From positions 105,568 through 169,567 of IMG/VR virus record IMGVR_UViG_3300022213_000237: DNA of 64,000 bases; one strand, given 5' to 3'. Numbering within the stretch: position 1 is the first letter of the stretch; each line of letters begins with the position of its first letter. The DNA comes from a virus. The position numbers were made by a program, and so were the translations under genes. Shown one piece after another: positions 30,431 through 58,513 of the stretch. Below the pieces are notes generated by a model, which was not told where the DNA came from, made no database searches, and was given only the letters and a program-made list of their open reading frames with translations.

Positions 30431-30568
30431 TCTATATCTCTCCGGAGAGGTGCAATACTTCGTAATGCATATATACTGAATTGATCTTCGGCTATGAGAG
30501 CCACGAACAAGCTTTATCAACTCCAGGGGTTGCTAATGGTTTGGAGTCGAACGGTAAACGAGAGTGTG

Positions 30569-30623
30569 ACTTTGTTTAAGAGAAATCCGTATACAAATAC
30601 TAACAACTTTTCTTAAACAAAGT
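30569..30623. repeat. Perfect 13-bp inverted repeat (CTTTGTTTAAG type)
   Basis: ACTTTGTTTAAGA at 30569-30581 is exactly inverted as TCTTAAACAAAGT at 30611-30623, 29 bases apart. A 6-base ACAAAG inside the second arm is again inverted at 30635-30640. Such arms fit operator half-sites or a cruciform. Confidence 0.6.
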
Positions 30624-30654
30624 TTTCTAAACTTCTTTGTCAAGTCTTTTGGAA

Positions 30655-30700
30655 AAACTTTTTTGAAAAAGTAATCAAACTAATTTATTCAAAAAAGTTT
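30655..30700. repeat. Perfect 13-bp inverted repeat (AAACTTTTTTGAA type)
   Basis: AAACTTTTTTGAA at 30655-30667 is exactly inverted as TTCAAAAAAGTTT at 30688-30700, 20 bases apart. A rightward transcript would form a weak A/U-rich stem, so a DNA-level role (unwinding, protein site) seems more likely than termination. Confidence 0.6.
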
Positions 30701-30847
30701 AATAAAAAGGGTGAGTTAAACAATTTTAAGGATTCTCAACAAAAGAACATTCACCCCTTGACAGCACTTTGAGTTATCATCCTTGTAACAAGATCCATAC
30801 GCTACAGCAATACCACGTTCCCCTTTTGATTAAGAGGTTTCTCTTCC

Positions 30848-36856: not shown

Positions 36857-37461
36857 TTAAGCGCCCAGAAGACAATCTGACGAAAATAGAGCAGGAAGAG
36901 CTTACTAAGTATCGACGCAGTGATGGCTACGCGCCTTTAGCTGCGTCTACAGCCGTGCGGCTATATCAGTTGTTCTTGTTGGGCCACTCGTGTGAGGAGA
37001 TTGTACGTACAAATGATAACCGTTTTCCGTTGGGTATGGTGGTCGATGCTCGCATTCGTCATGACTGGGATCGTCGTCGCACTGAGTATATCGATAGGCT
37101 GTATGAAGAGGCTGGAAGTATGGTGCGACAACGTCAAGTGGAAAGCGCTATGTTTCTTGGGGATATGCTTGCTGCGGCGCATGCAGAGTATGGCCCCAAA
37201 TTCCAAAAGTTCATTCAATCAAGAGACCCGAAAGACCTGCCCCCAGAATTTAAAATAGATACTCCCACAAAATACAAGATGGTTATCGACGGCCTCATGA
37301 AGATAACTGGTCAAGACAAGAAAGATGCAGCCGGCGCAGCCGTCCAGGTTATCGGCAACAATGTTATGTTGCAGGAAAGCGGATCTAAAACCGTTACTTC
37401 TCAAGAAGGGTTTGACATTCTTAAGCAGCTAGAACGTCTTGATAGTGAAAAGGTGAAGTAA
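36832..37461 (+). CDS. Putative terminase small subunit
   Basis: The 209-residue protein lies directly upstream of the large terminase and ends in a TAATG overlap with it. The segment STAVRLYQLFLLGHSCEEIVRTNDNRFPLGMVVDARIRHDWDRRR resembles a helix-turn-helix DNA-recognition unit as in small terminases, followed by a helical oligomerisation region. No catalytic residues are expected. The call depends on position and HTH pattern. Confidence 0.65.
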   Translation: MAEEDKEIIKRPEDNLTKIEQEELTKYRRSDGYAPLAASTAVRLYQLFLLGHSCEEIVRTNDNRFPLGMVVDARIRHDWDRRRTEYIDRLYEEAGSMVRQRQVESAMFLGDMLAAAHAEYGPKFQKFIQSRDPKDLPPEFKIDTPTKYKMVIDGLMKITGQDKKDAAGAAVQVIGNNVMLQESGSKTVTSQEGFDILKQLERLDSEKVK

Positions 37462-40400
37462 TGGACAAGCTACCGAAATTAACTCCGGCGCAGCTAGAAT
37501 TTTTGGCTGCCAATAGAGAGCAACTTGAGCGCCGGGCGCTCTTTGCCGTCTGTATATCCAAAGAACATCTGCATGCCTGGATTAAGCGGTATCTGAAAAT
37601 CGATCTGCCGGACACAATTGTCTGCGACGATGACGTAACGACGCCTGCTTCTAACAGCACCCCCATGGACCTTGTGTGGGAAATTTATCAAAAGGCTTTA
37701 CAGGGCGATGACGAGAAGTTTCAGCGCGTACTTGCTTACGCCGCGCGGGACAGCTTTAAAACACTATCCGCTTCGGTTCTAGAAATCCTTTGTTTGTTTC
37801 ATCTTCGGCGCGACGTTGCCCACATGGCTGCCATTGAAGCCCAGGCCCAAAAGGCTGCTTCGTATGTCTCTAAGTATTTGAATTTTCCTTATTTGCGAGA
37901 CTTTGTATCAGGAAACAATAAACGTGAAATACGTATTACACGTTACGAAGATTCTCGAGGAAACATCCTTACCCCAAGAGAGTTCGAAGAACTAGAGCCT
38001 AGAGATCAGCGCAAATACGAGCCTATTTCTCATTACATGAAGATCGTCATTGCGACCCTTAGCGGTGCGAATTGTGTAGACCCTACTACTTTTATTCGTC
38101 TAGCCAATGGAGAGGATGTTCTTGCTGTAGATATTAAGTCTGGTGATGAAATTTTAAATTTTGATCTTAAAAATCACACTTGGACGACTTCTAAGGTTGG
38201 AAGTGTTGTGTCATCTATTAAAGCTGCTATGAAGGTTTCTTTGGATGACGGCTCCTATGTGGTTGTGTCCGAAGACCATCCAGTTTTGACTACTCGAGGA
38301 TGGATTCGCGCCAGAGCTTTGCGGCTTACTGACAAGGTTCTTCCTCCTCCAATTTCCAGTACAACTCAGGTAATTAAACCACCTATTTTGGCTGACGGCG
38401 TTACCTTGGAATCGTTTAGCGTCGATCAGTTAATTTTGGGTTCTGTTCTTGGTGATTCTAGTTTGACGTGGCCCAAAAATTCATCTGGAGATAATTACGG
38501 TTCGGGGCCCCGTTTTCAAGTTTATCATTGCGCGGCCCAACTTCCTTATCTTTATCACAAGAAGGAGATCTTGGAGAATGCTGGCATTAAGTGTAGCGTA
38601 TATATGGATCCACGTGGTGGTGGAAAATTAATGACTGGAGTTTTACCTCAATACGCTGACTATTATCGGATGATGTATCCTGAGAATAAGAAGCAGGTAA
38701 CCAAGGAATGGTTGTCTAAACTTACCGACGAAGGACTGGCTTATTGGTTAATGGATGACGGCTCCGGTTCTCCTCAGAAATTGGGGTCCAGAAAAGATAA
38801 ACACATTTCAATAGCTACCTGTGGTTTTAGTTTACAGGAACATCAATTAATAGTTGATTTGTTTTTAGCAAAAGGACTGAATCCCAAAATTGGGACAGTA
38901 ACAAACCAAAGCTCCAAAACTTGGAATGTGATTGAATTTGATCTTGATTCTTCTAGAGAGTTATCGTCCCGTCTCGATAAATGGATCCATCCTGTATTGA
39001 AATATAAGTTCCCCACACCATTTCAGCTTCTAGATACCAGGTGTATTGAGACTGGAGCACCAATACAGAGATCTTCTGGTCTTGGATTCAGTAGAATTAC
39101 CCGCACTCCTAAGGTCTCTGAAAGAGAAAGATGGTCTGCTTTTAGAGATATGTTTACTCGAAGTATTCAACAATTAGAATTCTTGGGCAAACGAGTAATG
39201 ATGGATATTTCTGTCGATACAGACGATGAGATGAAACGTAACTTCGTAGCTAACTCCTCGTTATTATTACATAATTCCGAGCATGTGAGTTTTATGGTTC
39301 TCGACGAACTCGACTTAGCTCCAGCTGGCCCGGTTGAAGAAGCAAAAATGATTCCCGCCCCAGGTCAGGTTCGCGGTGAACTTCCCATCACGTTCATGAC
39401 GTCGACGCGCAAGTTTGCCATCGGACTTGTTCAGCAAGAAATAGATAAAGCTCAAAAGGACAGCGATTACCATTTACAGATTCGTCATTGGAATATCATC
39501 GACGTGACGAAGCGCTGTGAACCTAAACGCCATCTGCCCGAAGAACCCAAAATTCCTATATATTATTCGGAGCACAGCCTACGGGCAATCAGTGAACCAG
39601 AGTACAACCTTCTTTCCACTGAAGAGAAGACCAAGTTCCTAAAGCAAGAAGGCTACGCTGGTTGTTTACGTAATTGTTCTTTGTTTGCTGTCTGCAAGGG
39701 GCGATTAGCTACTAAACAAAAGGTAACTGACGACAATGTTAAGCCTAGGCCGATGTTAAAGCCTATTCCTCACGTCCTCACTCAATTCAAATCAGTCAAT
39801 CCAGACCACGCTAAAGCGCAATTGATGTGCTGGAAACCTTCTTCGGAAGGACTCATATATCCCTTTTTTAATTACTCTCGTCACATGATTGATGCCGCCG
39901 AGATGTATGAAAAAATAACTGGTGAGGAAATTCCTAAAGACCAATTAAATAATTTTACCAAGGCTGACCTAATCAAGGTTCTGCAAGAACGTGAAGTCGA
40001 ATTCTATACAGGCATGGACTGGGGTTATACTCACAATTGGGCAGCTGTAACCGGGGCTAAGGTTGGTCACCGATTCTTTGTCTTTGACGTCATTGCGGTT
40101 GCTGAGCTGGAAGTCATGCAGAAGATAGAGATGTACAAAAATAAGTTGGGGTTCCTGGACGCCACTGTATTTGCTGACCCCGAAGATCGCTCTAGCATAG
40201 AGACCTTCCGAAAAAATGGTGTTCGCATGCGAAAATGGAAGAAGGGTAGCGTAATTGGTGGTATCGATGCCGTACGTACTAAACTAATGCCCGGTCTTAA
40301 TAAAGAACCGGAACTGTATTTCCTGGCTAACGATGAAGGTTGTGAGTTACTGGCGGATCGTATTGCCAAGTATGCCTGGGTTCTCGACGCTACCCAGAAA

Positions 40401-40721
40401 CCTACCGATGTTCCTAGTGATTTTGAAGATGATGAATGCGACGCCCTCAGATACGTGATTGTGAATTTGTTTGGTAATCGTAGCAATATGGTGGCGGCAA
40501 TTGGTCCCGTGGCTCCCGGCGTTCAGTACGACCCTTCCTTTCCGGCGCCACGAGATGGAATGGGAATACCTCCTGGTATTTCCGTGTATCAAAACGAGAC
40601 TATTCTTGAATCTACTACTGAAAATTGGATGGATCGTAAAATTCAAGAACTTACCGGCAACCACGAAGATCCCAACGTCCCGAAATCCGGACGTAAAGGT
40701 TCTTTCAGCTTTGATTTTTGA
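37461..40721 (+). CDS. Terminase large subunit interrupted by an intein
   Basis: The precursor is 1,086 residues; the mature protein without intein has about 685. ATPase part: deviant Walker A YAARDSFKTLSAS around residues 93-104, and Walker B VSFMVLDELDLAP right after the intein. Nuclease part (RNase H fold): TGMDWGYTHNWAAV with first Asp, FADPEDRSS and the final DDECDALRYVI. It packages phage DNA into proheads, cutting concatemers. The intein sits between Walker A and B, just before the Walker B strand, at SGAN|SEH. It follows the small subunit, with the portal two genes later, the standard order. Confidence 0.92.
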   Translation: MDKLPKLTPAQLEFLAANREQLERRALFAVCISKEHLHAWIKRYLKIDLPDTIVCDDDVTTPASNSTPMDLVWEIYQKALQGDDEKFQRVLAYAARDSFKTLSASVLEILCLFHLRRDVAHMAAIEAQAQKAASYVSKYLNFPYLRDFVSGNNKREIRITRYEDSRGNILTPREFEELEPRDQRKYEPISHYMKIVIATLSGANCVDPTTFIRLANGEDVLAVDIKSGDEILNFDLKNHTWTTSKVGSVVSSIKAAMKVSLDDGSYVVVSEDHPVLTTRGWIRARALRLTDKVLPPPISSTTQVIKPPILADGVTLESFSVDQLILGSVLGDSSLTWPKNSSGDNYGSGPRFQVYHCAAQLPYLYHKKEILENAGIKCSVYMDPRGGGKLMTGVLPQYADYYRMMYPENKKQVTKEWLSKLTDEGLAYWLMDDGSGSPQKLGSRKDKHISIATCGFSLQEHQLIVDLFLAKGLNPKIGTVTNQSSKTWNVIEFDLDSSRELSSRLDKWIHPVLKYKFPTPFQLLDTRCIETGAPIQRSSGLGFSRITRTPKVSERERWSAFRDMFTRSIQQLEFLGKRVMMDISVDTDDEMKRNFVANSSLLLHNSEHVSFMVLDELDLAPAGPVEEAKMIPAPGQVRGELPITFMTSTRKFAIGLVQQEIDKAQKDSDYHLQIRHWNIIDVTKRCEPKRHLPEEPKIPIYYSEHSLRAISEPEYNLLSTEEKTKFLKQEGYAGCLRNCSLFAVCKGRLATKQKVTDDNVKPRPMLKPIPHVLTQFKSVNPDHAKAQLMCWKPSSEGLIYPFFNYSRHMIDAAEMYEKITGEEIPKDQLNNFTKADLIKVLQEREVEFYTGMDWGYTHNWAAVTGAKVGHRFFVFDVIAVAELEVMQKIEMYKNKLGFLDATVFADPEDRSSIETFRKNGVRMRKWKKGSVIGGIDAVRTKLMPGLNKEPELYFLANDEGCELLADRIAKYAWVLDATQKPTDVPSDFEDDECDALRYVIVNLFGNRSNMVAAIGPVAPGVQYDPSFPAPRDGMGIPPGISVYQNETILESTTENWMDRKIQELTGNHEDPNVPKSGRKGSFSFDF
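38073..39275 (+). mobile_element. Intein with LAGLIDADG-type endonuclease in terminase large subunit
   Basis: A 401-codon insertion begins with Cys (CVDPTTFIRLANGEDVLAVD, block A), has VSEDHPVLTTRGWIRA (block B), and ends SLLLHN before Ser. LILGSVLGDSSL and LAYWLMDDGSGS are the two LAGLIDADG-like motifs, the second of the type found in WLMDDGS endonucleases. Ligation of SGAN to SEHVSFMVLDELD restores the terminase. Codon use here is AT-richer than the flanking gene, consistent with separate origin. Confidence 0.92.
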
Positions 40722-41737: not shown

Positions 41738-43756
41738 ATGGCCGAAAACAAATCACCTCCAGGACCATTGCAGGCCGTCGTCGATGCTAAGGTACAGCGC
41801 TCCGGTGGGCGTATCAAATTCTCTCTTCATGATATCGATGAAGAAGGGAAGCTCCGCAAGTCCAAGGAAGAAGAAAATCCGTTGGCGGGTACCAAGCTTC
41901 AAAAAAGTTTCGTCAATTACACCGAAGACGTTAAGCGTGGGAAGGAAGTTAATCGTCTATCTTTTGAGGTAGACCCGACACACGCAAATTATTATCAGTC
42001 GTTGTGGATGCCTAAGTGGGGGCAACTTCCTGACCATGTCTTAAAACAAGTCTCCCTAAAAGATTCGTTGGTCGCCTCGATACTCACCATGCGCTCAAGC
42101 CAGATGTCTGCGTTTGGACGCGAATTGCAAGATCGCTTTGCTTCTGGTTATCGTATTGAGCCTCGGCCAGGTGTGATGGAAGATGCGTCCAATGAGCAAA
42201 AGGAGCTGCTCCAGAAGAGAATTGAAGATGCCAGTAAGTTGATTTCTACTTGCGGCTCTATCGAGGGGGTTCGTTTTGATGAGCGCATGTCTCTTTCTAC
42301 CTTTTTGTCGCTGCAAACCCGCAACGCTCTAGTTTTTGGTCGTTTTGCCACAGAAATTATATACACCCGAGATCCAGACGGAACTCGTAAATTTCACAGC
42401 TACCGGCCTGTCGATGCTGGGACCATTTACCAAGCGGCACCACGTCAAGATCATCTCAATCAAGTACGTAAAGAGGCTCTGCACCTACTTCAGCAGCTAA
42501 AAGGGCCAGATGCAGAAAAATTGAGTGCAGAAAAGTTTGAAAACGACGAATACGCCTGGGTGCAGGTGCTGGATGGCAAGCCTCGGCAAGCCTACACACC
42601 GGAAGAGATGGTCGTTCATAACATGTTTCCGTTAACGGATATTGAGTTGCGGGGTTATCCGATTAGTCCGATTGAAACCGTAATCGATGGCATCGCCACC
42701 CATATGAACATTGTACAGCACAATAAACTGTACTTTCAAAGTGGTCGAGCTGCCCGTGGTATGGTCGTCATTAAGTCACCGGACGTAGACCAGGGACTTG
42801 TGGCGCAAATACGTCAACATTTTAACGCGTCTATTAATTCTGTTTCTAACGCTTGGCGTGTACCTGTTTTTGGTGTTGACCCCGAAGATAGCGTCGAATG
42901 GGCACCCTTTGATATGTCCTCGGGCCGTGACATGGAGTTTCAATACCTATCTGACCAAAACGCGCGGGAAATTTGTTCTGCGTTCTTGATTTCGCCAGAA
43001 GAGCTACCCGGCTATCAGCACCTTAGTCGCGGCACTAACTCTCAGGCGCTTAGCGAAAGCTCTAATGAGTATAAGCTTGAGGCTGCTCGAGATGTCGGTA
43101 TCCGGCCTCTACTTAATCATTTCCAAGATTTCTTAAATGATCACATTTTACCTCTTATCGACCCCGCAGTTGCGCAGCTGTGCTCGCTAAAGCTCTACGG
43201 TCTCGATGCTGATACCGAAGAGAAAGAAGATACAGGTCTCACCAATCGTATGCAGATTGACCTGACCATGGACGAAATCCTTGAGCGTAAGGAAAAAGAT
43301 CCAGTTGGGAAAGAGTGGGGAGGGAAGTTTCTCTTCAATCCTGCTTGGCAGTCGGTGCTAGATAAGTATTTTAAGGTTTCGGACATCAAAAAACATTTCT
43401 TTGGGTTACAGCCCACAGAAGACGATGAATATGTAAGAGACCCCTTTTGGTTCAATTACCAACAGCTGAAGATGCAGGCAGAGCAAATGGAGCAACAAGC
43501 TCAGGCGCAACAACAGCAAGCTCAAGCCGAGAGCGGTGGTGAAGTCCAGGACGAAAGCCAAGAACAGGATTCTCAATTAGCTCAAAGCGCAGACAAAGCC
43601 ATTGATTTGATGAGCAAGAGCGAGAAACAACTGCCTCCCGGTAAACGGCGTTTGTTACATCTACACAAGAAAATCGTGAAAGACGCCATGGCGGAATGGG
43701 AAAAAGACAGTAAAGAAGCCTTGGCTGCGGTCGTGCAAGCCGTGAAGGACGAATAA
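41738..43756 (+). CDS. Portal protein
   Basis: The 672-residue protein has typical portal features: LKQVSLKDSLVASILTMRSSQ near residue 100, an internal RNALVFGRFATEIIYTRDPDGT stem segment, EEMVVHNMFPLTDIELRGYPISPIE, AREICSAFLISPEELPG (the clip region) and ESSNEYKLEAARDVGIRPLLNHFQDFLNDHIL, the long helix. A C-terminal Gln-rich part EQMEQQAQAQQQQAQAES ends it. It forms the 12-mer DNA gate at the capsid vertex and anchors terminase. It overlaps the following MuF-like gene as ATAATG. Confidence 0.9.
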   Translation: MAENKSPPGPLQAVVDAKVQRSGGRIKFSLHDIDEEGKLRKSKEEENPLAGTKLQKSFVNYTEDVKRGKEVNRLSFEVDPTHANYYQSLWMPKWGQLPDHVLKQVSLKDSLVASILTMRSSQMSAFGRELQDRFASGYRIEPRPGVMEDASNEQKELLQKRIEDASKLISTCGSIEGVRFDERMSLSTFLSLQTRNALVFGRFATEIIYTRDPDGTRKFHSYRPVDAGTIYQAAPRQDHLNQVRKEALHLLQQLKGPDAEKLSAEKFENDEYAWVQVLDGKPRQAYTPEEMVVHNMFPLTDIELRGYPISPIETVIDGIATHMNIVQHNKLYFQSGRAARGMVVIKSPDVDQGLVAQIRQHFNASINSVSNAWRVPVFGVDPEDSVEWAPFDMSSGRDMEFQYLSDQNAREICSAFLISPEELPGYQHLSRGTNSQALSESSNEYKLEAARDVGIRPLLNHFQDFLNDHILPLIDPAVAQLCSLKLYGLDADTEEKEDTGLTNRMQIDLTMDEILERKEKDPVGKEWGGKFLFNPAWQSVLDKYFKVSDIKKHFFGLQPTEDDEYVRDPFWFNYQQLKMQAEQMEQQAQAQQQQAQAESGGEVQDESQEQDSQLAQSADKAIDLMSKSEKQLPPGKRRLLHLHKKIVKDAMAEWEKDSKEALAAVVQAVKDE

Positions 43757-45756
43757 TGGCTAAGATCAAGCGCCTGTCTAAAAAGACGATGACTAAAATA
43801 GCCGACGCCGTCGACGCCCTCTTCGACAAAATGAAGGTGCGGCTTCTCGGCCCTCGTATGGTGGATAAGAAACTATTTATCACCTACAATCGCGAGAAAT
43901 CGTTACCCGGTCTCTACGAGCAGGCGCATATCGAAGAGAAAGGTATTCCAGACAAGGAACATCTTGATCAATTGGTGCGTACCACTGAAAATTACTTAGA
44001 AGCAGTGCGTCATCGAGCGAAGGCTAAGACCGTGGTCGCGGTACAGTCATTTATGGCCGAAAATCCTGACGCTAATGTAACCGACGTCCTGGGTGGCGAA
44101 CTTGCTGATATTTATGGTCAGGTTAAGCACGAGGTACGTAGGATTGCGGATACCGAAGCCCAGCATTTTCGCAATGTTGGTGTGATGGACGGTATTGTAA
44201 GAGTTAGCGCCGCCCACGGCATAAGTGATCCGATAGTGTATTTTGTTACAGTCAGAGACCAATACAGATGCGAGGAATGTACCCGACTCCATTTGCTTGA
44301 AGACGGCATCACTCCACGTGTCTGGAAATTGTCCGAATTAGGACATGGATATCATCAAAAAGGTGATGAAAATCCAAAGGTTGGGGGACTACACCCACAT
44401 TGTAGGTGCGTGTGGGATGGAAACGCACCTGTAATTACAGAGTCTGGTATCAAACCACTTAAATCTGTAGAGATAGGCGACCGGGTATTGACTCATACTG
44501 GTAAGTTTAAGAAAGTTATTGGTACTTTTTCTAAAGATGGTCTACTGCCGGAGAAAACGGACGACGTATACCGAATAGAATTCAGGTCCCCGCTGGGAAA
44601 AATACACAAGCTGCGTGTTACCAACGATCACTTAATGTTAACTCAGCGTGGTTGGGTGAGGGCCGAGGCCCTGGTCCCCGGTAAAGATACATTAGAATAT
44701 CTATTCGCTTCTTGTGAGACATGCAAAAAAGCATTTCCTCATAATATTCAAAAGCCTCGAAAAAGATTCTGCTCTTATAAGTGTTCTATTTCTGACAAAA
44801 TAGGTAAACCAAGTCCTACTCTTGGCAGGAAAGCTACACCAGAAGAAAAAGAGTTGAGATTAAAATCCATTAAAGCACTTTACGAAAAGAAGCACAAAAC
44901 AACATTCCCCCAAAAGACTGTTAATTGTAACGGGTGCGGAAACGAGTTTACAGTTGAAACTGGGTATAGGGATAAGTCTGGACATTGGGTGTCTCGTAAG
45001 AATTATAAGCTCGAGTATTGCTCTCGATCGTGTATTTCTAAGGCCATAGCTCTCAAACAATGGTCAAGTGCTGAACATAGACTTGCTGTTTCGGAAGCTA
45101 ATCGAAAATCTATGTTAGAACAATATCGTACTGGCAGACGCAACCCTTTAGGTATTAAAGAAGCCAGGCAAGCTCTTTACGGTTTGGGTCGAGGCGGAAG
45201 TAAAGACGAGAAACGTTTGTATCAAACAATTAAAAGCTCTTACTTAGACGCCGAATCCAACTATTCGATAGGAAGATATTTTGCTGATGTTGCTATTCCA
45301 TCTATTAAGACAGTTGTAGAGTGGGACGGTGGTGGTCACTGGCTTGATGTATATAAAGGCAAAAAGACTATGGAAGAAAAGATAGCTGAAGACGCAACTC
45401 GTGATGAGTTTATGAGAAGTTTGGGGTGGCACGTTCTCAGATATACAGAAGAAACAGGGTTTAGCACAATATTCGAAGATATCCGGAGGGTGGCTCAAAA
45501 TTCTACTGGTCAATACTCATTCAGGCCTGTTGAAATTGTCAAAGTAGTTAGAATTCCAGCCAGCAAAGCCTCCCCTGGAAGGAGATTATATGATATAACT
45601 GTAGAGGATGATTCTTCTTTTGTTGTTATGGGTATTGTTTCTCATAATTGTTCTATGACCACACTTCTTCCCGGATTCGGATTTGATAGTGCCGGTATGG
45701 TTGCGTGGAAGGGTGAACATCACGACGAGTTTGAGCGCCAGCGTGCAGGGCTTTAA
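43756..45756 (+). CDS. MuF-like head morphogenesis protein interrupted by an intein
   Basis: The precursor is 666 residues; the mature form is about 252. The extein has the MuF C-terminal pattern DQYRCEECTRLHLLEDG, LHPHCRC then SMTTLLPGFGF (C-x-C near the end), and an N-terminal helical part. MuF proteins are minor capsid components injected or used in head assembly. The intein is inserted between HCR and CSMT; after splicing the HPHCRC motif is complete. It follows the portal, the usual order. The extein call is firm, the exact role less so. Confidence 0.85.
   Translation: MAKIKRLSKKTMTKIADAVDALFDKMKVRLLGPRMVDKKLFITYNREKSLPGLYEQAHIEEKGIPDKEHLDQLVRTTENYLEAVRHRAKAKTVVAVQSFMAENPDANVTDVLGGELADIYGQVKHEVRRIADTEAQHFRNVGVMDGIVRVSAAHGISDPIVYFVTVRDQYRCEECTRLHLLEDGITPRVWKLSELGHGYHQKGDENPKVGGLHPHCRCVWDGNAPVITESGIKPLKSVEIGDRVLTHTGKFKKVIGTFSKDGLLPEKTDDVYRIEFRSPLGKIHKLRVTNDHLMLTQRGWVRAEALVPGKDTLEYLFASCETCKKAFPHNIQKPRKRFCSYKCSISDKIGKPSPTLGRKATPEEKELRLKSIKALYEKKHKTTFPQKTVNCNGCGNEFTVETGYRDKSGHWVSRKNYKLEYCSRSCISKAIALKQWSSAEHRLAVSEANRKSMLEQYRTGRRNPLGIKEARQALYGLGRGGSKDEKRLYQTIKSSYLDAESNYSIGRYFADVAIPSIKTVVEWDGGGHWLDVYKGKKTMEEKIAEDATRDEFMRSLGWHVLRYTEETGFSTIFEDIRRVAQNSTGQYSFRPVEIVKVVRIPASKASPGRRLYDITVEDDSSFVVMGIVSHNCSMTTLLPGFGFDSAGMVAWKGEHHDEFERQRAGL
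44407..45648 (+). mobile_element. Intein with zinc-finger and Vsr/PD-(D/E)XK-type nuclease in MuF-like protein
   Basis: This 414-codon insertion starts at Cys (CVWDGNAPVITESGIKPL), has NDHLMLTQRGWVRA (block B) and ends DITVEDDSSFVVMGIVSHN before Cys. The nuclease part has no LAGLIDADG. Instead it holds a cysteine pair CETC and FCSYKCS, a GKPSPTLGRKATPEEKELRL segment like the NUMOD3 DNA-binding motif, another zinc-like pair CNGCGNEF and YCSRSCIS, then DVAIPSIKTVVEWDGGGHW and RDEFMRSLGWHVLRYTEE, which match Vsr/DUF559-type PD-(D/E)XK nucleases. Such nucleases are uncommon inside inteins. Confidence 0.85.
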
Positions 45757-45978: not shown

Positions 45979-48900
45979 ATGAATAAGCTAACTAAATCGA
46001 TGGTTATTGATGGAATTGCAGCTTCACAAGCTATTGATTCTTCAGGTGAAATCTTAGACATCGAAGGCTTAGATATTTCGTCAGTTAAAGAGGGTACGGC
46101 TCAAATAAATTACGAGCACCGCTCTGATTCGTCTGATGGGGCGAGCGCCAATGATATTATTGGCCATATCACTTACGCGAAGAAGATTTTTGGTCCCAAA
46201 GACTGCGAAAACGACCGACAACTTAAGTACTGGAATTCGGTCCAGTTACCGTTTGTGTACATCAAAGCCGAGCTTTTTGACGGTGAGGGGCATGTCGGAG
46301 CACAGGCAGCGGCGGCATTGATTCGATATTACCACCTCCGACGCCTACCCCTTGTGGCGAGATACTCAATCGAGGGATCTACTTTAAAACGAGAAGGCAA
46401 CACCCTCAAACGCTCTATAATGAAGAGGGTTTCTCTCACCGTAAAACCTTGTAATCGTTCATGCATTTCTGGTGTTCTTTCCGATGGCGAAAAACCCGAA
46501 GCTTCACCAGACGCGCTTGAAAGTCTTAAGCGTTTTGAGAATCCAGGTCGTGCGAAACTCGGCGGCTACGAAGGCGAATTCGAACCCGTGGTTTTAGACC
46601 CTCTTCAGAAGATGAGAGACGCGGTGGAATCGCTGCGTGAGATGAATAATCTCAATAAAGCTCTTTCAGCTGGCGGCTTTGATGCTGTCCCTACAACTCT
46701 TACTGGCGGAGCCGCACTTTCGGCTGAGAATTTTGGCGACGTTGAGAAGAGAAAGAAATTTATTAAGAATCAGGTTCTTGGCGCCGTACGTGATTGGCGA
46801 GGTCGTGGTGACCTTCGGAAGTTTCTGAAGCATCGTATGCCCGACGCATCAGAGGACTTCATCAATCATTTTGCTGCTCTGGTCGAAGACTATCAACTTA
46901 AGAAGTTTGCCGACCTTGAAGCCAACCTAAATAAGGCAGTAGCTGGCGGCGCCGTTGCAGGTAAGACTCCAGCGGCTGCGATACAGCCCGCAGACAAACT
47001 GGCACCAAAGAAACCTGATTCTAAGGTCCAGACCAAGGCCAAGGCACAAAAGCTGGCGACCGTGGAGCAACATCACGCCAAAGTCAAAGCCACACAAGAA
47101 AACGAAGATAACCTAACCGAAGCCGACCTTGGCGATCAACCTTTAACCGTGCGCGGTAAAGCGGTACGCGCGAACGACAATATCACGTCTCCTCATTTTG
47201 ATGAGCGAACAGGTACTCTACACACTCAACGCGGGTCCTTCAAGATGTACTTGCCGCAGGAAGATAAATTCCCAGGCGCTTTAGAGTCATTCCATAACGC
47301 TCTGAATGATCCAAAGGCTACTCATTTCCATGACTACGCTACCAGTAATTGGCTGAAGGTTCACAAACTTCTTAAGGAGGGTCGTCTGCCTCCGGAAGTG
47401 ATTATGCACAGTGTGTTGTTTTCACAACTGAGTCCCAATACACCTGTCCCCATGCAGGAGCTAATGTACGGACATTTAGTGGACACCATGAAGGAAAAAG
47501 GGGTAGATGCCCGTTCGCCTTCATTCTCTTCTATTAAAGACGATTGGATAGGCAGAGATACCGGTAAGAAATTCCCTGAAGTGGCGGGAGATTTTTTCCA
47601 ACAGAATCAAGGAATCCGTCTCAAAAACCCAACATCTACTAGAGAAGCTGGAGATATGGGGAGTTTCATGCTTGCGAACAACAAGTTCAAAAACATGGAA
47701 CAGTATCATGGTCTCCATAATTCGTTAGTGGAGCTGTTTGGTCGTCATAGTACCGATGCCCGCGCAGCCGTTTCCGAGCTTATGGGTCATAAGCATAAAG
47801 CCAACTTGTGGGAAGCAAGGCGTGCTCGCGAAATCGAGAAAGGTAGACCCGATCCTGGTGAATATGCCGATGGCCCAGCAGTCCCAGGCCTAGCACCAAA
47901 GACTGGACGCTACATGGCGGCCATGATTGGCGGCGGCAACGTCCACGTGCCAGATACCCATTTTGCCCGTTATTTATTTGGTCTCGAGAAGGGTACGGAT
48001 AAGCGTTCAATTGCTTACCTCAAAAACACTTTATGGAATCCCAACAACAGTCACGTTCTTGAGGGTATCGATCGTTTTTACGCCACGAATCACCCAGCTG
48101 TCCAGCACATGATGGATCATCCTGTTTTTGGTAAACAGTTTGCTTCCCGCGAAGACGCTATTTTCCCCGCGTTCTGGAAGAATTGGATAGCTATCGCACC
48201 ACACGAGCGAGCACGCAAAATGAAGACCATGGCTTACAACGAAGCCACGGACCATAAACCTTTCTGGGAAGCCATCGCTCCATTTACGAAAGCAGAAAAC
48301 GACGATGTGAGCTTTGACTTTGGTGCTAATGCGGACACACATGCACATGCGCGTAAGGTTGTTAATCGATTACGAGAACCTAATCGTTCTGTGGGTCATG
48401 CTTTTGTGGATTATGTTGTTGGCAAGTCCCCAAAACGTCCAGATATTCACCCCGACCTGGAACGACATCTAGCTCGTCACGGCATTGTTGATCCAGCTGG
48501 ATACGGATTCGATGAATCTGGCCGCAGTATGCGCCGACCTATTCCGGGTCCGCGTAAAATTGGTCGCGGCGAGGAGCCTCGAGACCTACACAGATTCAGG
48601 ATGATGAATCGTGGCTGGGATCCCGGCTACGTCAAAGGCGAGCTAGAGAAGTCTGAATCCGGAAATACATTGCCGCAGCAAACGGCACGGCTGCATGCTC
48701 AATGGGTTGAGCAATACGGCGAGATTCCGGCGCAAATGCTATACTACGCTCACATCGTTCCTCAGCTGTTGCGCGCGAGCCGCAGAAACGAGAACGTGAT
48801 TGTCAAGTTTCAGCGTATAGCCGAAGATTTACGTAAGGCCGTACCTCAAGACCCGCCATTGCCAGAATTACCTAAACACGACACCACAGGCTTACATGAG

Positions 48901-50055
48901 TTTCAGAATTCTTGGACTAAGCCCGGTGAAATCGAACTAACAGCCGGCCCATTCAAAGGCAGTAAGCTCGCATATCTTGGTAAGGATAGCTTGAAAGGTA
49001 AGCATTTTGCTAAAGCCCCGACCGGCGAACTACATACTCTACCATTTAGTCAGGAAGGCAAGGCGTTCAAAATCAATGTTCCGCCTCAACCCGTCAAATT
49101 GCCGGCGTATGTGGATGCAAATCAACATAGCGATCCTCTTAATAAGACGTTTGCTCAGAAGTCGCTCTTACACGGCATTGATATCAATGATCGTGTGGGT
49201 CGCATCGAAACCGAAACACTTACGTCCAGCGCCCCAGGTGCCGGTTGGTATAAGAATCATGCGGGTGAGATGGGTTTGGTCAAACCTGATCCAAAAGGGG
49301 CTGCAGATTGGTGGGCTGATGAAGATCCAGAGTATGTTCGTGCTCAAAAATCTTACGACTTGCCAAGTCGTGAAGCTTTGTATCCGGTCATGGCCAAAGA
49401 ATTTTTCGGCATGGGTCAATATGTGCCCACTACCGCCAAGTTTACTCATCCTAAGACGGGCGAGCCTATGTCCGTTCAGCAGCGAGTTGCTGGCGCCGAA
49501 CATGTCGACATAGATGACGACGACCACGCCTACAATTTACACAAACTCTACAGTCAAGGCGAGTTAGATAAGTTAGGCCTCATGGATATCTTGATGGGTA
49601 ATAATGATCGCCATCAAGGTAATTTTATGATGACTTCAAAAGAGCCACATGTTCATCTAATAGATAACGGATTATCTTTGGATTACAAGAATCCGTTGAT
49701 ACCTCACGAAGTATGGCTATCTCATCAATGGATGACTGACCATATGCATGGGCATCCCAGCTTCGGCGCTCATCCGATTCATGCAGCCGCCACCAACTGG
49801 TTGCTTGGATTGGATCATGGAGAATTTGTTAAACAACTTCTTAACCATGGTGTTCCCGAAAACATTGTCAAGCATGCGTCGCGACGCATGCAGGCTCTAC
49901 AATTAGAAGCTGCGCAATCAAAACTCGACCCCGCGCAGCCGTTTACACGGGCCCGCGCTGGCCACGTTGTCGATAACCTCAATGGATTTGTCAATCGTTG
50001 GGGTTCACCATTTGTAGCGGCAAAACCTAAGGCCACAAATTCGGACTCAGAGTAA
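45979..50055 (+). CDS. Large fusion: prohead-protease-like N-terminus with HipA/PI-kinase-like C-terminus
   Basis: The 1,358-residue protein starts at ATG 45979 (an in-frame GTG lies at 45967). Residues 1-170 look like a capsid maturation protease: GIAASQAIDSSGEILD, NYEHRSD (candidate catalytic His), VARYSIEGSTLKR (candidate Ser). The middle (about 400-760) is unassigned; it contains GGGNVHVPDTHFARYLFGL. At about residues 1065-1265 a kinase-like domain appears with GLVKPD, a GNNDRHQGNF loop near 1207 and HLIDNGLSLDY, the NxDRHxxN and Asp pattern of HipA, FAM20 and phosphoinositide-type kinases. Such a chain is a polyvalent protein of a kind thought to be packaged with DNA. The protease gives head maturation. 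Both ends are strong, the middle is not. Confidence 0.8.
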   Translation: MNKLTKSMVIDGIAASQAIDSSGEILDIEGLDISSVKEGTAQINYEHRSDSSDGASANDIIGHITYAKKIFGPKDCENDRQLKYWNSVQLPFVYIKAELFDGEGHVGAQAAAALIRYYHLRRLPLVARYSIEGSTLKREGNTLKRSIMKRVSLTVKPCNRSCISGVLSDGEKPEASPDALESLKRFENPGRAKLGGYEGEFEPVVLDPLQKMRDAVESLREMNNLNKALSAGGFDAVPTTLTGGAALSAENFGDVEKRKKFIKNQVLGAVRDWRGRGDLRKFLKHRMPDASEDFINHFAALVEDYQLKKFADLEANLNKAVAGGAVAGKTPAAAIQPADKLAPKKPDSKVQTKAKAQKLATVEQHHAKVKATQENEDNLTEADLGDQPLTVRGKAVRANDNITSPHFDERTGTLHTQRGSFKMYLPQEDKFPGALESFHNALNDPKATHFHDYATSNWLKVHKLLKEGRLPPEVIMHSVLFSQLSPNTPVPMQELMYGHLVDTMKEKGVDARSPSFSSIKDDWIGRDTGKKFPEVAGDFFQQNQGIRLKNPTSTREAGDMGSFMLANNKFKNMEQYHGLHNSLVELFGRHSTDARAAVSELMGHKHKANLWEARRAREIEKGRPDPGEYADGPAVPGLAPKTGRYMAAMIGGGNVHVPDTHFARYLFGLEKGTDKRSIAYLKNTLWNPNNSHVLEGIDRFYATNHPAVQHMMDHPVFGKQFASREDAIFPAFWKNWIAIAPHERARKMKTMAYNEATDHKPFWEAIAPFTKAENDDVSFDFGANADTHAHARKVVNRLREPNRSVGHAFVDYVVGKSPKRPDIHPDLERHLARHGIVDPAGYGFDESGRSMRRPIPGPRKIGRGEEPRDLHRFRMMNRGWDPGYVKGELEKSESGNTLPQQTARLHAQWVEQYGEIPAQMLYYAHIVPQLLRASRRNENVIVKFQRIAEDLRKAVPQDPPLPELPKHDTTGLHEFQNSWTKPGEIELTAGPFKGSKLAYLGKDSLKGKHFAKAPTGELHTLPFSQEGKAFKINVPPQPVKLPAYVDANQHSDPLNKTFAQKSLLHGIDINDRVGRIETETLTSSAPGAGWYKNHAGEMGLVKPDPKGAADWWADEDPEYVRAQKSYDLPSREALYPVMAKEFFGMGQYVPTTAKFTHPKTGEPMSVQQRVAGAEHVDIDDDDHAYNLHKLYSQGELDKLGLMDILMGNNDRHQGNFMMTSKEPHVHLIDNGLSLDYKNPLIPHEVWLSHQWMTDHMHGHPSFGAHPIHAAATNWLLGLDHGEFVKQLLNHGVPENIVKHASRRMQALQLEAAQSKLDPAQPFTRARAGHVVDNLNGFVNRWGSPFVAAKPKATNSDSE

Positions 50056-50059
50056 AGAT

Positions 50060-50512
50060 ATGATCTCCAACGGCATCTACAGACTATATAAGCTCCATCA
50101 CGATGAGCTAAACAATACGACCCGGAGTCTAGCTGGACGAATTCTCGTACACGATGGGCAGATTGAGCACCTTGAAGATCATGGCGGCATGGACCGTTTA
50201 CTACCCTCAGGTCCAGTCACTCCCGCGTTGGAGCGCAGATTCTCTCGTCTCACCTCCAGCGGTTACCACGAATTAATTAACGAAGCCGACATCGCGGCGG
50301 GCCATCATCCCGACGAAGTACAAGACCTAGATGTAGGTCCTGTTGAAGCAGAACATAAATTCATCATGACTGGCGATGGGGTTTCTACACCCGCAATGGT
50401 GGAAATGTGGGACGACATTATTACCGTCGATGGTCGTGAACTTGATGCTGTCGAAGCACACTCCCTACTCAATGAAGTAGCTGGCGGTAGGATTGTTCTT
50501 ACACCAATCTAA
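50060..50512 (+). CDS. Hypothetical protein in head module
   Basis: The 150-residue protein is acidic with a helix-beta pattern and no recognised motif. It begins 5 bases after the large fusion gene and ends 30 bases before the GGDEF gene, so it should be co-transcribed with both. Function unknown; it may be a capsid accessory. Confidence 0.7.
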   Translation: MISNGIYRLYKLHHDELNNTTRSLAGRILVHDGQIEHLEDHGGMDRLLPSGPVTPALERRFSRLTSSGYHELINEADIAAGHHPDEVQDLDVGPVEAEHKFIMTGDGVSTPAMVEMWDDIITVDGRELDAVEAHSLLNEVAGGRIVLTPI

Positions 50513-50541: not shown

Positions 50542-51768
50542 ATGAGCAAAAATATTCTTAAACTTTTTGACGACCTCAAAAAAATGGACCCAACGCTCTC
50601 GCAAGCATTGGCAAATATTCGTGCTGGTCGCGCTACGCCTCAAGATGCAGATGTAGTCAGCAGGGGCCTATACACAGACACGATGATTCCGCGTATTGGC
50701 AATAAATACGCTTATAATGATCATGTTTCTCGACACGCAAATGATGGCATCCATACCCATTTAGATTTAAACGATTTTCGTCAAATCAATAAACAGCATG
50801 GCCAGCAACACGGGGACGCCGCCATTAAACAATTTGGTAACATTGCAGCCGACGTATCCCGCATGTTTGGCGGCAAAATGCATCGCCGTGGCGGCGACGA
50901 GTTTTCTGCTTGGTTTCATCGTCCGGAAGCTGCGCACGGGTTTGCGCGCGAACTCAGAAATCGGTTAGAGAAAACTCCTAAAGTCGCGGGTACACACAAT
51001 CTCGCAGCTTCTATCGGTATCGGCTACACACCAGAGCATGCCGAGAAGGCCTTACTCGAGGCCAAAAAGCAACTTGGTTCCACGGATCCAACTACAGGTC
51101 AACGTGTTAATGTGCATAGTGTAGGAAACGCTCCTACCGTAATCCATAGCTTGACTCACGAACAGCCTCCCGAAAACTGGAAGCCATCTAAAGGTCAGGC
51201 GCCCGGCCAAGCCAAAGAGTTGCCATCTTTAGCTCCAGCCGGATTACAATTTAATAACCCGCTCGCAAAAAGTACTGCTAAACAGCCGGTACCCTCAAAA
51301 CATCCGGCTCTAGAAGGTGGAAGAGTAGGTATCATGACTGGTGAAAATCCTTTTCATCCGGCTACCGCCTCTGGCGGGAACGCGGGTCTCGAAAACGAGT
51401 TACGGAGTAGGGGGTTGCGTTTTGAGAAGGTTAAGGGAAAGTATTCTGAAGGTGAGCCAGAAAATAGTTTCATCATTCACGACGTCGATGCTCCAACGCT
51501 AATGGATTTAGGTAAACGCTACGGGCAAGACAGCGTACTCCATTCTCATAATGGTACTCATAAACTAATTTACACAAACGGACCTAATGAAGGCACATAT
51601 CACCCTGGTCACGGATTAACGGTTCATCCACAAGAGCCGGAAATGTACTATTCGACCTTAGTCCATAATGGGAATCCGGTTCACTTCACTATGAACTTGG
51701 ATTTTGATCAGAAACTTCCTTTGTCTTCTCATTCGACTCAGAAGCCTTCGAACCACGAGCAGCAATAA
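50542..51768 (+). CDS. GGDEF-domain protein with DUF3293-like C-terminal part
   Basis: The 408-residue protein has a GGDEF domain at about residues 45-170: LDLNDFRQINKQHG (metal site, Asp75; second Asp replaced by Asn77), HGDAAIKQFGNIAADVSRMFG, and the exact RGGDEF signature at residues 116-121, then a SIGIGY strand. Residues 185-260 are a Pro/Gln-rich linker. The C-terminal part NPFHPATASGGNAGLENELRS, PENSFIIHDVDAPTL and KRYGQDSVLHSHNGT fits the DUF3293 family. Diguanylate cyclases make the second messenger c-di-GMP; the I-site RxxD is absent. It is unusual to find this in a phage head module. A nucleotide-cyclase or nucleotide-binding role is inferred, not shown. Confidence 0.78.
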   Translation: MSKNILKLFDDLKKMDPTLSQALANIRAGRATPQDADVVSRGLYTDTMIPRIGNKYAYNDHVSRHANDGIHTHLDLNDFRQINKQHGQQHGDAAIKQFGNIAADVSRMFGGKMHRRGGDEFSAWFHRPEAAHGFARELRNRLEKTPKVAGTHNLAASIGIGYTPEHAEKALLEAKKQLGSTDPTTGQRVNVHSVGNAPTVIHSLTHEQPPENWKPSKGQAPGQAKELPSLAPAGLQFNNPLAKSTAKQPVPSKHPALEGGRVGIMTGENPFHPATASGGNAGLENELRSRGLRFEKVKGKYSEGEPENSFIIHDVDAPTLMDLGKRYGQDSVLHSHNGTHKLIYTNGPNEGTYHPGHGLTVHPQEPEMYYSTLVHNGNPVHFTMNLDFDQKLPLSSHSTQKPSNHEQQ

Positions 51769-53559: not shown

Positions 53560-54963
53560 ATGGCCGCAGGACTAATTGAAAAGCTAGACGAGCTGCGCAA
53601 AGCTTTGGAAGCGGGTAACTTCAACGCCCGTCCTTCGAGCCTTGTTCAGGGCTCCGCAATGCAAGTGGAAGACATTTCGCCAGTGATGGTTAATGTCACC
53701 TACAATGACAAAACTCTTAAACTCCAGAAGAAACTGGGAGTGAAGCCCGCGAAGGGAACCTTCATCCAGTTCCTACGACGTTTGTCGTACGGTACCTGGG
53801 GCGGATCCGCTCAGCTCGAAGGAGCAGTTGGTAATGAGCAGACCGGTGATTACGTACGTGCCGGTATTCCGATGGCGTACTACTCGGAAGTTCGTCGCGT
53901 CACCCACGTGGCATCGCTCGTCAAGACTGTTACTGGCGAAGATCCGAAAGAGCTGGAAGCGGAAGCCGCTGCTCTTCGTCTCGCTGGCGACATCGAGTTC
54001 GACTGTTTCCGTGGCAAGGCCGACTTCACCAACGCAGGCGTGTTCGATGGTAACCCCAACGTCATCCCCGCGCTCGCGAACATGATTGGTCTCGAAGTTC
54101 AGATCCGTCAGTCCGATCTGCAGAGCAACACCCAGGACCTGATGTTCGAAGCCTACGGCTCGGGCCTCTCGGTCGTCATCAATGGTGGCTCGACGCTGTC
54201 GAAGAGCAACATCGAAGACGCTCATGTTCGTAGCCAGATGAACCACGGCACTGCGGACAAGCTCTTTGTCGACCCTCTCGTTCTGTCCGCACATAACAAA
54301 ATTATGTGGAACAACGAGCGCGTGGTTCTCGGCGCTTCCGCCCAGGATGCGACCGGTCAAGACCTTCGTCGCCAGTTTGTTTCCGGCGGTATGGTCGAAA
54401 TCGAAGCTTCCCGTTTCCTCTCGGGCAAGTTCAAGTCGAGCCGTCCTCGTCTTAACGCTCCTGCGGCACCGTCGATTGCTGTTGACGCGACCAACGCCTC
54501 GAGCACGGCATTCGTTGCTGGCCAGGTTTACACCTACTACGTTACGGCTGAAAACAGCCTCGGCGAAGGTTTCCCCTCGGCTAGCGCGTCAGATACTGTT
54601 ACCGTCAACGGTAACCGCATCGACGTGACCATCACCCCCGGCGCAGGTACGCAAACGTTCTTCAACGTTTACCGTTCACCCGCTGGTGGAAGCGCGGCGC
54701 AAGCTCGCTTCATCGGTCGAATCGTGAACTCGGGTGCTGCGACCACGGTGTTCCGAGACCTTGGCAACAAGATCCCCGGATTCGTGACCGGCTTCCTGGT
54801 GCAAGAAGACACGATGGAACTCATGGAACTGTCGGCATACAGCCGCATGAAGCTCGCGGTCACCGACCTGTCGGAACCCGAAGCCCACTTCAGATTCCTT
54901 TGCTTGAAAGTTACGGAGCCCAGAAAAAATTGTTTGATCGATAACCTCCGTGGCGATCTGTAA
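53560..54963 (+). CDS. Major capsid protein with Ig/FN3-like insertion
   Basis: The 467-residue protein has AAAGGAG spaced well before ATG 53560. Helical N-terminal region, LGVKPAKGTFIQFLRRLSYGTWGG, VGNEQTGDYVRAGIPMAYYSEVRRVTHVASL and the ADKLFVDPLVLSAHNKIMWNN segment fit an HK97-fold capsid subunit. Residues about 305-400 hold a fibronectin-like unit (APAAPSIAVDATNASS, YTYYVTAENSLGEGFPSASA, FFNVYRSPAGG), an insertion often displayed on capsid surfaces. Codon use here is GC-richer and smoother than in neighbours, as in highly expressed genes. An intrinsic terminator follows. Downstream neighbours are not head genes, so transcription probably ends here. Confidence 0.85.
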   Translation: MAAGLIEKLDELRKALEAGNFNARPSSLVQGSAMQVEDISPVMVNVTYNDKTLKLQKKLGVKPAKGTFIQFLRRLSYGTWGGSAQLEGAVGNEQTGDYVRAGIPMAYYSEVRRVTHVASLVKTVTGEDPKELEAEAAALRLAGDIEFDCFRGKADFTNAGVFDGNPNVIPALANMIGLEVQIRQSDLQSNTQDLMFEAYGSGLSVVINGGSTLSKSNIEDAHVRSQMNHGTADKLFVDPLVLSAHNKIMWNNERVVLGASAQDATGQDLRRQFVSGGMVEIEASRFLSGKFKSSRPRLNAPAAPSIAVDATNASSTAFVAGQVYTYYVTAENSLGEGFPSASASDTVTVNGNRIDVTITPGAGTQTFFNVYRSPAGGSAAQARFIGRIVNSGAATTVFRDLGNKIPGFVTGFLVQEDTMELMELSAYSRMKLAVTDLSEPEAHFRFLCLKVTEPRKNCLIDNLRGDL

Positions 54964-56858: not shown

Positions 56859-57701
56859 GTGAAGATCTCAGCCAAAATTATTGCCGATAGCGTGCTCGCG
56901 CCTGGTCATGCCGCAGGTATTCCTCGTTTAACTACGATGGAGTTGACGTACCCTAGATTCATTCACTCGGAGTTCATGACGCATCGCGTCTTTTCTCGTA
57001 ATGCTGCGTCTTCCCGCGCCATTCCCGTGCGCAAAATGCTGACACAAGTTTGGAAAGACCCGGCAATGCCAACATACTGGGGCTCGAACAAGCCGGGTAT
57101 GCAGGCGGGTGCGGAGTTAACCGGTTGGCGCCTCAAAGCCGCTAAAAAGCTTTGGGTGTTAGCCGGTTGGGTGATGGTTGCGTTCGCTTGGAGTCTATCA
57201 AAACTAGGGCTCCATAAACAAATCGCTAATCGTATTCTCGAGCCGTGGATGTGGATGAAGACAATTGTATCCGCCACCGACTGGGGAAACTTCTTTAACC
57301 TCCGAATCCATGCCGATGCGCAGCCAGAAATAAAAGTTCTGGCGGAGGCCATGCTGAAAGCCATGAACAGCAGCCGCCCTCGCCAGCTACAACCGGGCCA
57401 GTGGCATCTACCGTACGTACGCGGCTCAGAATACTTGCTTTACAGCTATGACAGCATGGGCTTGCAACAGATCTCTGCCGCCCGCTGTGCCCGCGTTTCA
57501 TATCTAAATCATGACGGTTCGAAGCCCGACGTCAAAAAAGATCTCGAGCTATACGAAATGCTTGCGAAAGCCCCACACGCATCTCCCTTTGAACACCAAG
57601 CCACCCCGGTTGTGGGAAGGCACGGCAACTTCAACGGTTGGAAGCAATTCCGCCAATTCATACCTAACGAGAATCAACCTGACTACAAAGGATTTAAATA
57701 A
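56859..57701 (+). CDS. ThyX-like flavin-dependent thymidylate synthase, divergent motif
   Basis: The 280-residue protein starts at GTG 56859. ThyX makes dTMP using FAD and NADPH. ThyX features are FIHSEFMTHRVFSRNAASSRAIPVRKML, where the usual RHRxxSxNExSxRY appears as THRVFSRNAASSRA, lacking the Glu and Tyr. Later RPRQLQPGQWHLPYV, ISAARCARVSYLNHD and HASPFEHQATPV fit ThyX C-terminal parts. A hydrophobic stretch at about residues 97-117 (LWVLAGWVMVAFAWSLSKLGL) is odd for a soluble enzyme. It is upstream of the dNMP kinase with a 1-base overlap, a likely dTTP pathway pair. The family call is likely, activity less certain. Confidence 0.7.
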   Translation: MKISAKIIADSVLAPGHAAGIPRLTTMELTYPRFIHSEFMTHRVFSRNAASSRAIPVRKMLTQVWKDPAMPTYWGSNKPGMQAGAELTGWRLKAAKKLWVLAGWVMVAFAWSLSKLGLHKQIANRILEPWMWMKTIVSATDWGNFFNLRIHADAQPEIKVLAEAMLKAMNSSRPRQLQPGQWHLPYVRGSEYLLYSYDSMGLQQISAARCARVSYLNHDGSKPDVKKDLELYEMLAKAPHASPFEHQATPVVGRHGNFNGWKQFRQFIPNENQPDYKGFK

Positions 57702-58513
57702 TGCCGTTACCACTCATCTTGTTATGCGGTAATGCCGGCTCAGGCAAAGACACTGTAGCTGGTTTCATTGCCAAGAATTTTGGCGCCGTCTGTATTGCGC
57801 AAGCCGACCCCATGAAAAGGTTTTTGCTCAAGACTTTTGGTTTCACTGAAGAACAGCTATGGGGTCCTAGCGAGATGCGGAATGGGGTTGACTCCCGCTT
57901 CGACAACAATTGGCGTCTTTGGTCCGAAACTCGACACCGACTCCGTAGCGATGCCTCATGGTTTGTTGAAGAAGTGTTACCAGATCTAGACGACGCTGAA
58001 CATATATTAGCGGTAAAAAAACTTGTTGATTGGGGTAACGAAATAACAGATACGAAGAACAGGTCGGGTATCACGCCACGAAAAGTGCTCCAATCAATGG
58101 GTACAGAGTGGGGTAGAGCGGTGTCTCGTGACGTGTGGAGTAATTACGCCAAGACCACAGCTTTCAAGCTGCTGGGCGGCGGTTATTCCTATAATCGAGT
58201 GTCCGGACTTGTGACCGATGCTACCAGTAATCCCAACTTTGTGGTTATAACAGACGGTAGGTTTCGCAATGAAATCGTTAACGTCCTCGCCGTCGGTGGC
58301 TCCGTATGGGACATCTCCTCACCCAAAGTACTCAAAGAAGATAATGCCGCCGTCGAAGCCGCAGGCATTAAGGGGCATGCTTCAGAGGCAGAGCTTAAGT
58401 CCGTTCCTTTGCATTTCTTTACTAATGTTTTTGTGAACAATAAGTCGGCTGGCTTAGATTTCTGCGAAAAAAAGGTCGTTGAGCGCATGGTGAATGAATG
58501 GGGTACAAAATGA
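57701..58513 (+). CDS. Deoxynucleoside monophosphate kinase-like protein
   Basis: The 270-residue protein begins with a Walker A loop GNAGSGKDT (residues 10-18), followed by AQADPMKRFLLKTFGF, a central segment VLQSMGTEWGR and VITDGRFRNEIV, features of phage dNMP kinases such as T4 gp1. It phosphorylates dTMP, dGMP or modified dCMP to diphosphates. It overlaps the ThyX gene by one base and the next gene by 4 bases (ATGA), supporting joint translation. Substrate range not visible. Confidence 0.82.
   Translation: MPLPLILLCGNAGSGKDTVAGFIAKNFGAVCIAQADPMKRFLLKTFGFTEEQLWGPSEMRNGVDSRFDNNWRLWSETRHRLRSDASWFVEEVLPDLDDAEHILAVKKLVDWGNEITDTKNRSGITPRKVLQSMGTEWGRAVSRDVWSNYAKTTAFKLLGGGYSYNRVSGLVTDATSNPNFVVITDGRFRNEIVNVLAVGGSVWDISSPKVLKEDNAAVEAAGIKGHASEAELKSVPLHFFTNVFVNNKSAGLDFCEKKVVERMVNEWGTK

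Follow-up and report, generated by a model that had tools for sequence, protein, structure and literature searches.

Polyvalent proteins have been proposed to be packaged and delivered together with the DNA, and GGDEF, kinase and GNAT domains are found among them (Iyer et al. 2017; PMC5512222), with P1 DdrB as one precedent for a polyvalent protein that is both processed and packaged (PMC5512222). In SPN3US, the prohead protease is autoprocessed, cleaving off its C-terminal part, and proteins are probably directed to the prohead by their propeptides (PMC5694885). Here we analyse a gene on the + strand of a 64,000-nucleotide stretch of DNA from a myxophage-like virus (the window; bases 105568-169567 of the 169,567-base virus record IMGVR_UViG_3300022213_000237), whose product joins in one chain an apparent prohead protease, a motif common to the major capsid protein (MCP), a helix-hairpin-helix (HhH) DNA-glycosylase-like domain and a PI4K/HipA-like kinase domain. 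The identities of the domains, the conservation of their catalytic residues, the gene order, the common motif and the exchange of cargo among related viruses are computed here, and we favour, if only slightly, the view that this is a polyvalent head protein whose protease helps to load, and probably releases, enzymatic cargo that is injected into the host.

Among cultured phages, the closest relative is Myxococcus phage Mx1, which has a contractile tail and a genome of 169,621 bp. Its protein WNM70322.1 (in OR576727.2) shows 49.9% identity over 89% of the query and is annotated only as "putative prohead protease". It contains the identical three domains in the same order, within a neighbourhood that likewise reads portal, polyvalent gene, X, nucleotide cyclase and MCP. 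The kinase loop differs, being QVDRNDGNY in Mx1 versus NNDRHQGNF in the window, with the catalytic Asp and Asn retained.

Domain Organization of the Polyvalent Protein

The + strand frame at 45979-50055 is open from its ATG and encodes 1358 residues, bearing out the reading frame given in an initial annotation made from the letters of the window alone; an upstream GTG at 45967 would give 1362 residues. The features of the chain, all on the + strand, are the following:

45979..50055, +, polyvalent protein of 1358 residues: prohead protease, MCP-like motif, HhH DNA-glycosylase-like domain and PI4K/HipA-like kinase
46000..46488, +, assemblin/HK97-type prohead protease domain, residues 8-170, from fold match and conserved residues
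46117-46119, +, candidate catalytic His47 (38/38 relatives)
46366-46368, +, candidate catalytic Ser130 (38/38 relatives)
46633..46743, +, linker motif, residues 219-255, common to the MCP N-terminus; proposed processing or assembly site
46738..46947, +, helical segment that follows the motif and is conserved, residues 254-323, possibly scaffold-like
47146..48288, +, HhH-GPD DNA-glycosylase-like domain with Ogg2-type fold, residues 390-770, from fold and motif residues
47881..47973, +, helix-hairpin-helix and Asp motif VPGLAPKTGRY...VPDTHFAR, with Lys641 at 47899-47901 and Asp659 at 47953-47955
49114..49983, +, PI4K-II/CtkA/HipA/FAM20-type kinase domain, residues 1046-1335, with K1102, E1132, D1210, N1215 and D1229

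The N-terminal domain is the apparent prohead protease of the phage, for which cleavage of the capsid is predicted. Residues 1-960 were modelled together with 20 relatives; the protease region of the model is of high confidence, and VIA-align of model residues 1-171 matches herpesvirus capsid proteases with Z values of 6.7-8.7 (8.7 for pseudorabies pUL26N, and 6.7-7.6 for those of human cytomegalovirus, herpes simplex virus, Kaposi's sarcoma-associated herpesvirus and Epstein-Barr virus). Many phage prohead proteases of the BFVD viral model library also match the protease model, with E down to 4e-7. Profile matches to phrog_1028 (head maturation protease) are weak in the window protein (E 0.003-0.009) and are found in 9/20 relatives, the best at 4.9e-6. 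By analogy with the family, His47 and Ser130 are assigned as the candidate catalytic pair. Thus, the capsid maturation protease suspected at the N-terminus from the letters is corroborated by the predicted herpesvirus-protease fold and by the invariance of both residues in 38 relatives.

The middle of the chain (about 400-760), left unassigned in the initial annotation, can be described further, since residues 390-770 most likely adopt a helix-hairpin-helix DNA glycosylase fold with predicted activity, as indicated by an Ogg2 fold match together with Lys641 and Asp659. The domain shows a predicted local distance difference test score (pLDDT) near 90 in the 1-960 model, and its top VIA-align match is the archaeal 8-oxoguanine glycosylase SsOgg 3fhg (Z 15.7, 203/207 residues, root mean square deviation (rmsd) 3.0), next to which come MjaOgg 3knt and TmOgg 3n0u (both Z 15.1), then OGG1 (9.7) and endonuclease III (8.7). 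Within it, VPGLAPKTGRY...VPDTHFARYLFGL reads as a helix-hairpin-helix and then the catalytic Asp, as in HhH-GPD glycosylases, with Lys641 conserved in 38/39 relatives and Asp659, Gly637 and His661 in 39/39. The domain shares with SsOgg, MjaOgg and TmOgg, which are archaeal and bacterial 8-oxoguanine DNA glycosylases of the Ogg2 kind, the overall HhH-GPD fold, the catalytic Lys/Asp and their spacing of 18 residues, whereas identity to them is 10-12% and additional N-terminal strands and inserts are present. That spacing equals the one in the catalytic pairs Lys129/Asp147 of MjaOgg and Lys128/Asp146 of SsoOgg; in Ogg2 enzymes, His133 and a C-terminal Lys recognise 8-oxoguanine (PMC5069365).

Two other assignments were considered for this region. 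Prok_Ub, for the stretch just after the HhH motif, was rejected as a chance match (E 0.05-0.14), and a queuosine-salvage (DUF2419) fold was not preferred for the middle domain, at Z 8.7 versus 15.7 for Ogg2. Separately, five of the related loci from IMG/VR (L007, L027, L048, L050 and L062) carry intein-like insertions within the glycosylase domain, several of them at or beside a conserved LSPNTPVPxQELMY motif. Inteins frequently mark functional sites.

The C-terminal domain is supported, at the level of the predicted fold, as a kinase of the PI4K/HipA type, its likeness to HipA being one of fold only. It matches PF00454 (PI3_PI4_kinase) with E 3.1e-7 and 31 bits, above the Pfam curated cut-off of 27.1, and structure prediction of the C-terminal region yields kinase lobes. 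The model matches PI4K type II by Foldseek (E 4e-6) and PI4K-IIalpha with Z 17.9 over 253 residues (rmsd 3.7), followed by H. pylori CtkA (13.7), FAM20A (13.1), HipT (12.2) and HipA (11.4). Among 20 non-redundant relatives, K1102 and E1132 are each conserved in 19/20 and D1210, N1215 and D1229 in 20/20. With Z values of 11.4-17.9 and conserved catalytic residues, the HipA/FAM20/phosphoinositide kinase reading, originally drawn from GNNDRHQGNF (residues 1207-1216) and LIDNG (residues 1227-1231), is right at fold level. Neither of the outcomes that the initial annotation named against this reading is seen: kinase lobes are predicted, and of the NxDRHxxN pattern the catalytic Asp and Asn stand in 20/20 relatives and the His in 15/20. 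Because full-length relatives retain all three regions, the threefold match of the window protein is not due to chance.

The phage also encodes a second kinase protein, L009:20-2509, at the start of the same record, with a frame of at least 830 residues, GNAT domains and a PI3K/HipA-like kinase domain. Its motif is GNSDRHANN, and its Mx1 counterpart lies at 28851-30710.

Motif Common to the Protease Linker and the Capsid Protein

A motif of ~30 residues, (L)xKALxAGxxxxAPxxLxxGxALQxED, follows the protease and is met again in the MCP:

53560..54963, +, major capsid protein (phrog_752, E 7.4e-42)
53575..53685, +, second copy of the motif, MCP residues 6-42

The window linker and MCP motif are matched by BLASTP with E 2e-4, and when the first 70 residues of the MCP were compared with the polyvalent protein, the best local alignment exceeded all 200 shuffles in 14/15 phages and was placed at the linker motif. 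A profile of the motif run over the phage frames gives two sites only, linker and MCP (60 and 77 bits), the next best scoring -2; since both sites were in the training set of the profile, the absence of further sites is the informative part. The linker motif can also be recognised in several distant family members that have other tails. To judge from these alignments, the simplest reading is that the motif would serve both proteins as a processing site or as a common element of assembly. An AXE-type cleavage site (cf. PMC5694885) was considered for it and rejected, as the Glu is absent from many linker copies, and therefore a scissile bond is not proposed.

Exchange of Tails behind the Protease

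Searches of IMG/VR gave 6 loci with the whole protein, and 21, later 37, with the middle domain; the search with the protease domain returned 112 stretches, of which 80 loci were kept, some of them repeating one contig. Several of these relatives lie on contigs of 165-172 kb, comparable to Mx1. Plasmids searched for relatives yielded none, and the single match among genome contigs falls in a Saccharibacteria metagenome-assembled genome that is possibly misbinned. All loci were scanned with profiles for the protease, middle domain, kinase, X and GGDEF; in the window, X and GGDEF are separate genes downstream of the kinase:

50060..50512, +, X domain, 150 residues, a separate gene in the window; in relatives either part of the protease protein or joined to GGDEF on its upstream side
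50542..51768, +, GGDEF-domain protein (RRGGDEF) with a weak DUF3293/SAM-lyase-like C-terminus; fused to protease-glycosylase in other phages

When counting protease frames that end inside their contig, partly deduplicated, the protease is followed by the kinase in 17, by glycosylase and kinase in 14, by glycosylase, X and GGDEF in 12, by X and GGDEF in 4, by the glycosylase in 4, and by unrecognised tails in 16. Where loci of the protease, glycosylase and kinase form have enough downstream sequence, X and GGDEF come next, in one or two genes of their own. Kinase and GGDEF tails are intermingled in the tree built from the glycosylase domain, which has weak support at its deep branches, and repeated exchange, or fusion and fission, is therefore suggested. 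The glycosylase is an independent module, because in L059, where the protease is missing, it comes after GNAT and DUF5661 domains. Taken together, the sequences suggest one head protease with exchangeable enzyme cargo across related viruses. The fusion of protease and kinase domains recognised in the initial annotation is hence sustained for both domains, with the qualification that the kinase is just one of several interchangeable tails.

Some further features of these loci were observed. Most GGDEF copies, whether downstream of the kinase form or fused to the glycosylase form, retain (R)xGGDEF. Distant members of the protease family (L124-L141) have tails without Pfam match or with DUF6321, some of which contain stretches such as VHEIAHLML and VHEMAHVYL, resembling the HExxH motifs of zincin metalloproteases. 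At L008:9336-15662, an open frame of 2109 residues without Pfam match follows a protease and kinase gene.

Gene Order around the Polyvalent Gene

In the window and in relatives, the polyvalent gene sits between the portal/MuF-like gene and the MCP. Upstream of it are found:

41738..43756, +, portal protein
43756..45756, +, probable MuF-like head protein, split by an intein that carries a DUF559-type nuclease, called mainly from position (Phage_Mu_F E 0.12)

A probable terminase gene at 37461-40721 of the window is also split by an intein (LAGLIDADG), both the terminase and the MuF-like calls being made by synteny with Mx1. After the capsid genes, at 56859-58513, come genes for a thymidylate synthase of the ThyX type and for a deoxynucleotide monophosphate (dNMP) kinase, as in Mx1. 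Downstream of the MCP, at 61376-63901, an 841-residue protein with NUDIX and GNAT domains is possibly another multi-enzyme cargo protein.

Proposed Mechanism and Rival Explanations

In the mechanism here proposed, the polyvalent protein would enter the prohead along with the capsid protein, its protease would cut the common motif both in the capsid protein and in its own chain, and cleavage would free the glycosylase/AP-lyase-like and kinase cargo inside the head. These loading, cleavage and release steps appear most likely on the grounds of gene position, common motif and precedent. The cargo would then be ejected with the DNA and act early in the new host, most likely by analogy with polyvalent proteins. 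Our preferred guess is that the glycosylase would act on DNA bases, either repairing incoming DNA or attacking DNA that is modified or belongs to the host; the kinase, on the same guess, would modify a host target. While we infer cleavage, packaging, injection, catalytic activity and substrates for this protein, circumstantial support for its processing, packaging and injection is provided by its position between portal and MCP and by a motif common only to the MCP. Extended to the phage family, the proposal is more tentative and falls a little short of an even case: the prohead protease would be a platform for loading and releasing enzymes that occupy an exchangeable cargo slot, the linker copying the N-terminal processing site of the MCP so that glycosylase/lyase and PI4K-like kinase (or diguanylate cyclase) are freed in the head for injection.

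Several points weigh against the view set out above. The kinase model has a mean pLDDT of 69. Pfam gives no family match for the glycosylase-like domain in any of 20 members, sequence-profile searches of the PDB with the middle domain give chance matches or none, and Foldseek of the 960-residue model against the PDB gives no match below 0.001; the glycosylase assignment consequently comes from the structural aligner and the motif residues. Searches of the middle domain in PHROGs and NCBIfam gave nothing usable. Divergent family members can escape models of the Pfam type, so that an absent match is non-defining. As to the substrate, the Ogg2 His133 (Lys+4) is replaced by Tyr in 30/39 and by Phe in 9/39 relatives, and the C-terminal Lys of Ogg2 cannot be in place in a domain that is internal in the chain; with neither residue retained, 8-oxoguanine is unsupported. 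Finally, the common motif could be merely a docking or scaffold element, with cleavage within it being our inference.

In a rival explanation, the protease bears a long C-terminal extension that is structural or serves as a scaffold and is destroyed or left behind at maturation; its enzyme-like domains would have been taken up for assembly, without any function in the next host. C-terminal scaffold segments are common in prohead proteases, conservation extends to the helical segment that follows the motif, and some relatives have tails without a recognisable enzyme. However, a scaffold role leaves unexplained both the near invariance of the glycosylase Lys/Asp and of the kinase K/E/D/N/D and the fact that GGDEF, kinase and glycosylase replace one another, and we consider it rather unlikely. 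The kinase and glycosylase might otherwise act in the producing cell late in infection, the fusion to the protease coordinating only their expression or release and nothing being packaged for injection. Such a role would fit a further protein with a kinase domain, encoded downstream of the MCP, by which kinases may have general roles, and the ThyX and dNMP kinase genes near the MCP, which point to nucleotide metabolism. It is made unlikely by the motif common only to the capsid protein and by the position of the gene among those for the head, both of which favour prohead assembly.

Regarding the chemistry, the glycosylase-fold domain could be a base-hypermodification enzyme acting on phage DNA, and not in base excision. 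Enzymes of the HhH fold have been proposed for thymidine hypermodification, and the same ThyX-type synthase and dNMP kinase lie near the MCP. Mx1 DNA is reported to contain unidentified minor pyrimidines (PMC6070905), in line with such a role. On the contrary, the domain retains the catalytic Lys and Asp of bifunctional glycosylases, and we regard hypermodification as quite improbable; a search for HMUDK_hel (PF18723) gave zero matches in the window phage and in Mx1, its control likewise giving zero.

If the proposed release of injected enzyme cargo by the prohead protease is true, one gene couples head maturation with enzyme delivery, the common motif is a capsid-loading and release signal open to testing, and the kinase, glycosylase and diguanylate cyclase that replace one another behind a single protease constitute a natural series of injected effectors. 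Mx1 can be propagated on a model bacterium, its laboratory host being M. xanthus DK1050, and a glycosylase-fold enzyme is here placed among the clustered head genes of a phage that reportedly has unidentified pyrimidines in its DNA.

Comparison with Known Systems

The kinase domain resembles PI4K type II, CtkA, FAM20 and HipA in its predicted two-lobe fold and its K/E/D/N/D active-site set, and differs from them in an identity of about 12-18% and in being fused to a head protein. The best BFVD match to the protease-glycosylase model is A0A6J5L1V5 (32% identity), a protein of 584 residues from an uncultured Caudovirales phage named "PI3K/PI4K catalytic domain-containing protein"; known from automatic annotation alone, it fits in name and length the protease and kinase form of L008 and others, and it appears to be without the glycosylase.

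With the polyvalent proteins (PMC5512222), the window protein shares the presence of several unrelated enzyme domains and a peptidase in one chain, and exchangeable architecture is seen here too. By contrast, assemblin-like peptidases are always placed C-terminally in that description, whereas that of the window protein is N-terminal and is apparently the prohead protease itself. Neither glycosylase nor HipA is mentioned in the text of PMC5512222, where the kinase domain is described as a distinct STY-kinase group. What is new with respect to the polyvalent proteins of 2017 is thus the combination of an N-terminal assemblin-type protease, an HhH glycosylase and a PI4K/HipA-type kinase, as here identified, in one chain.

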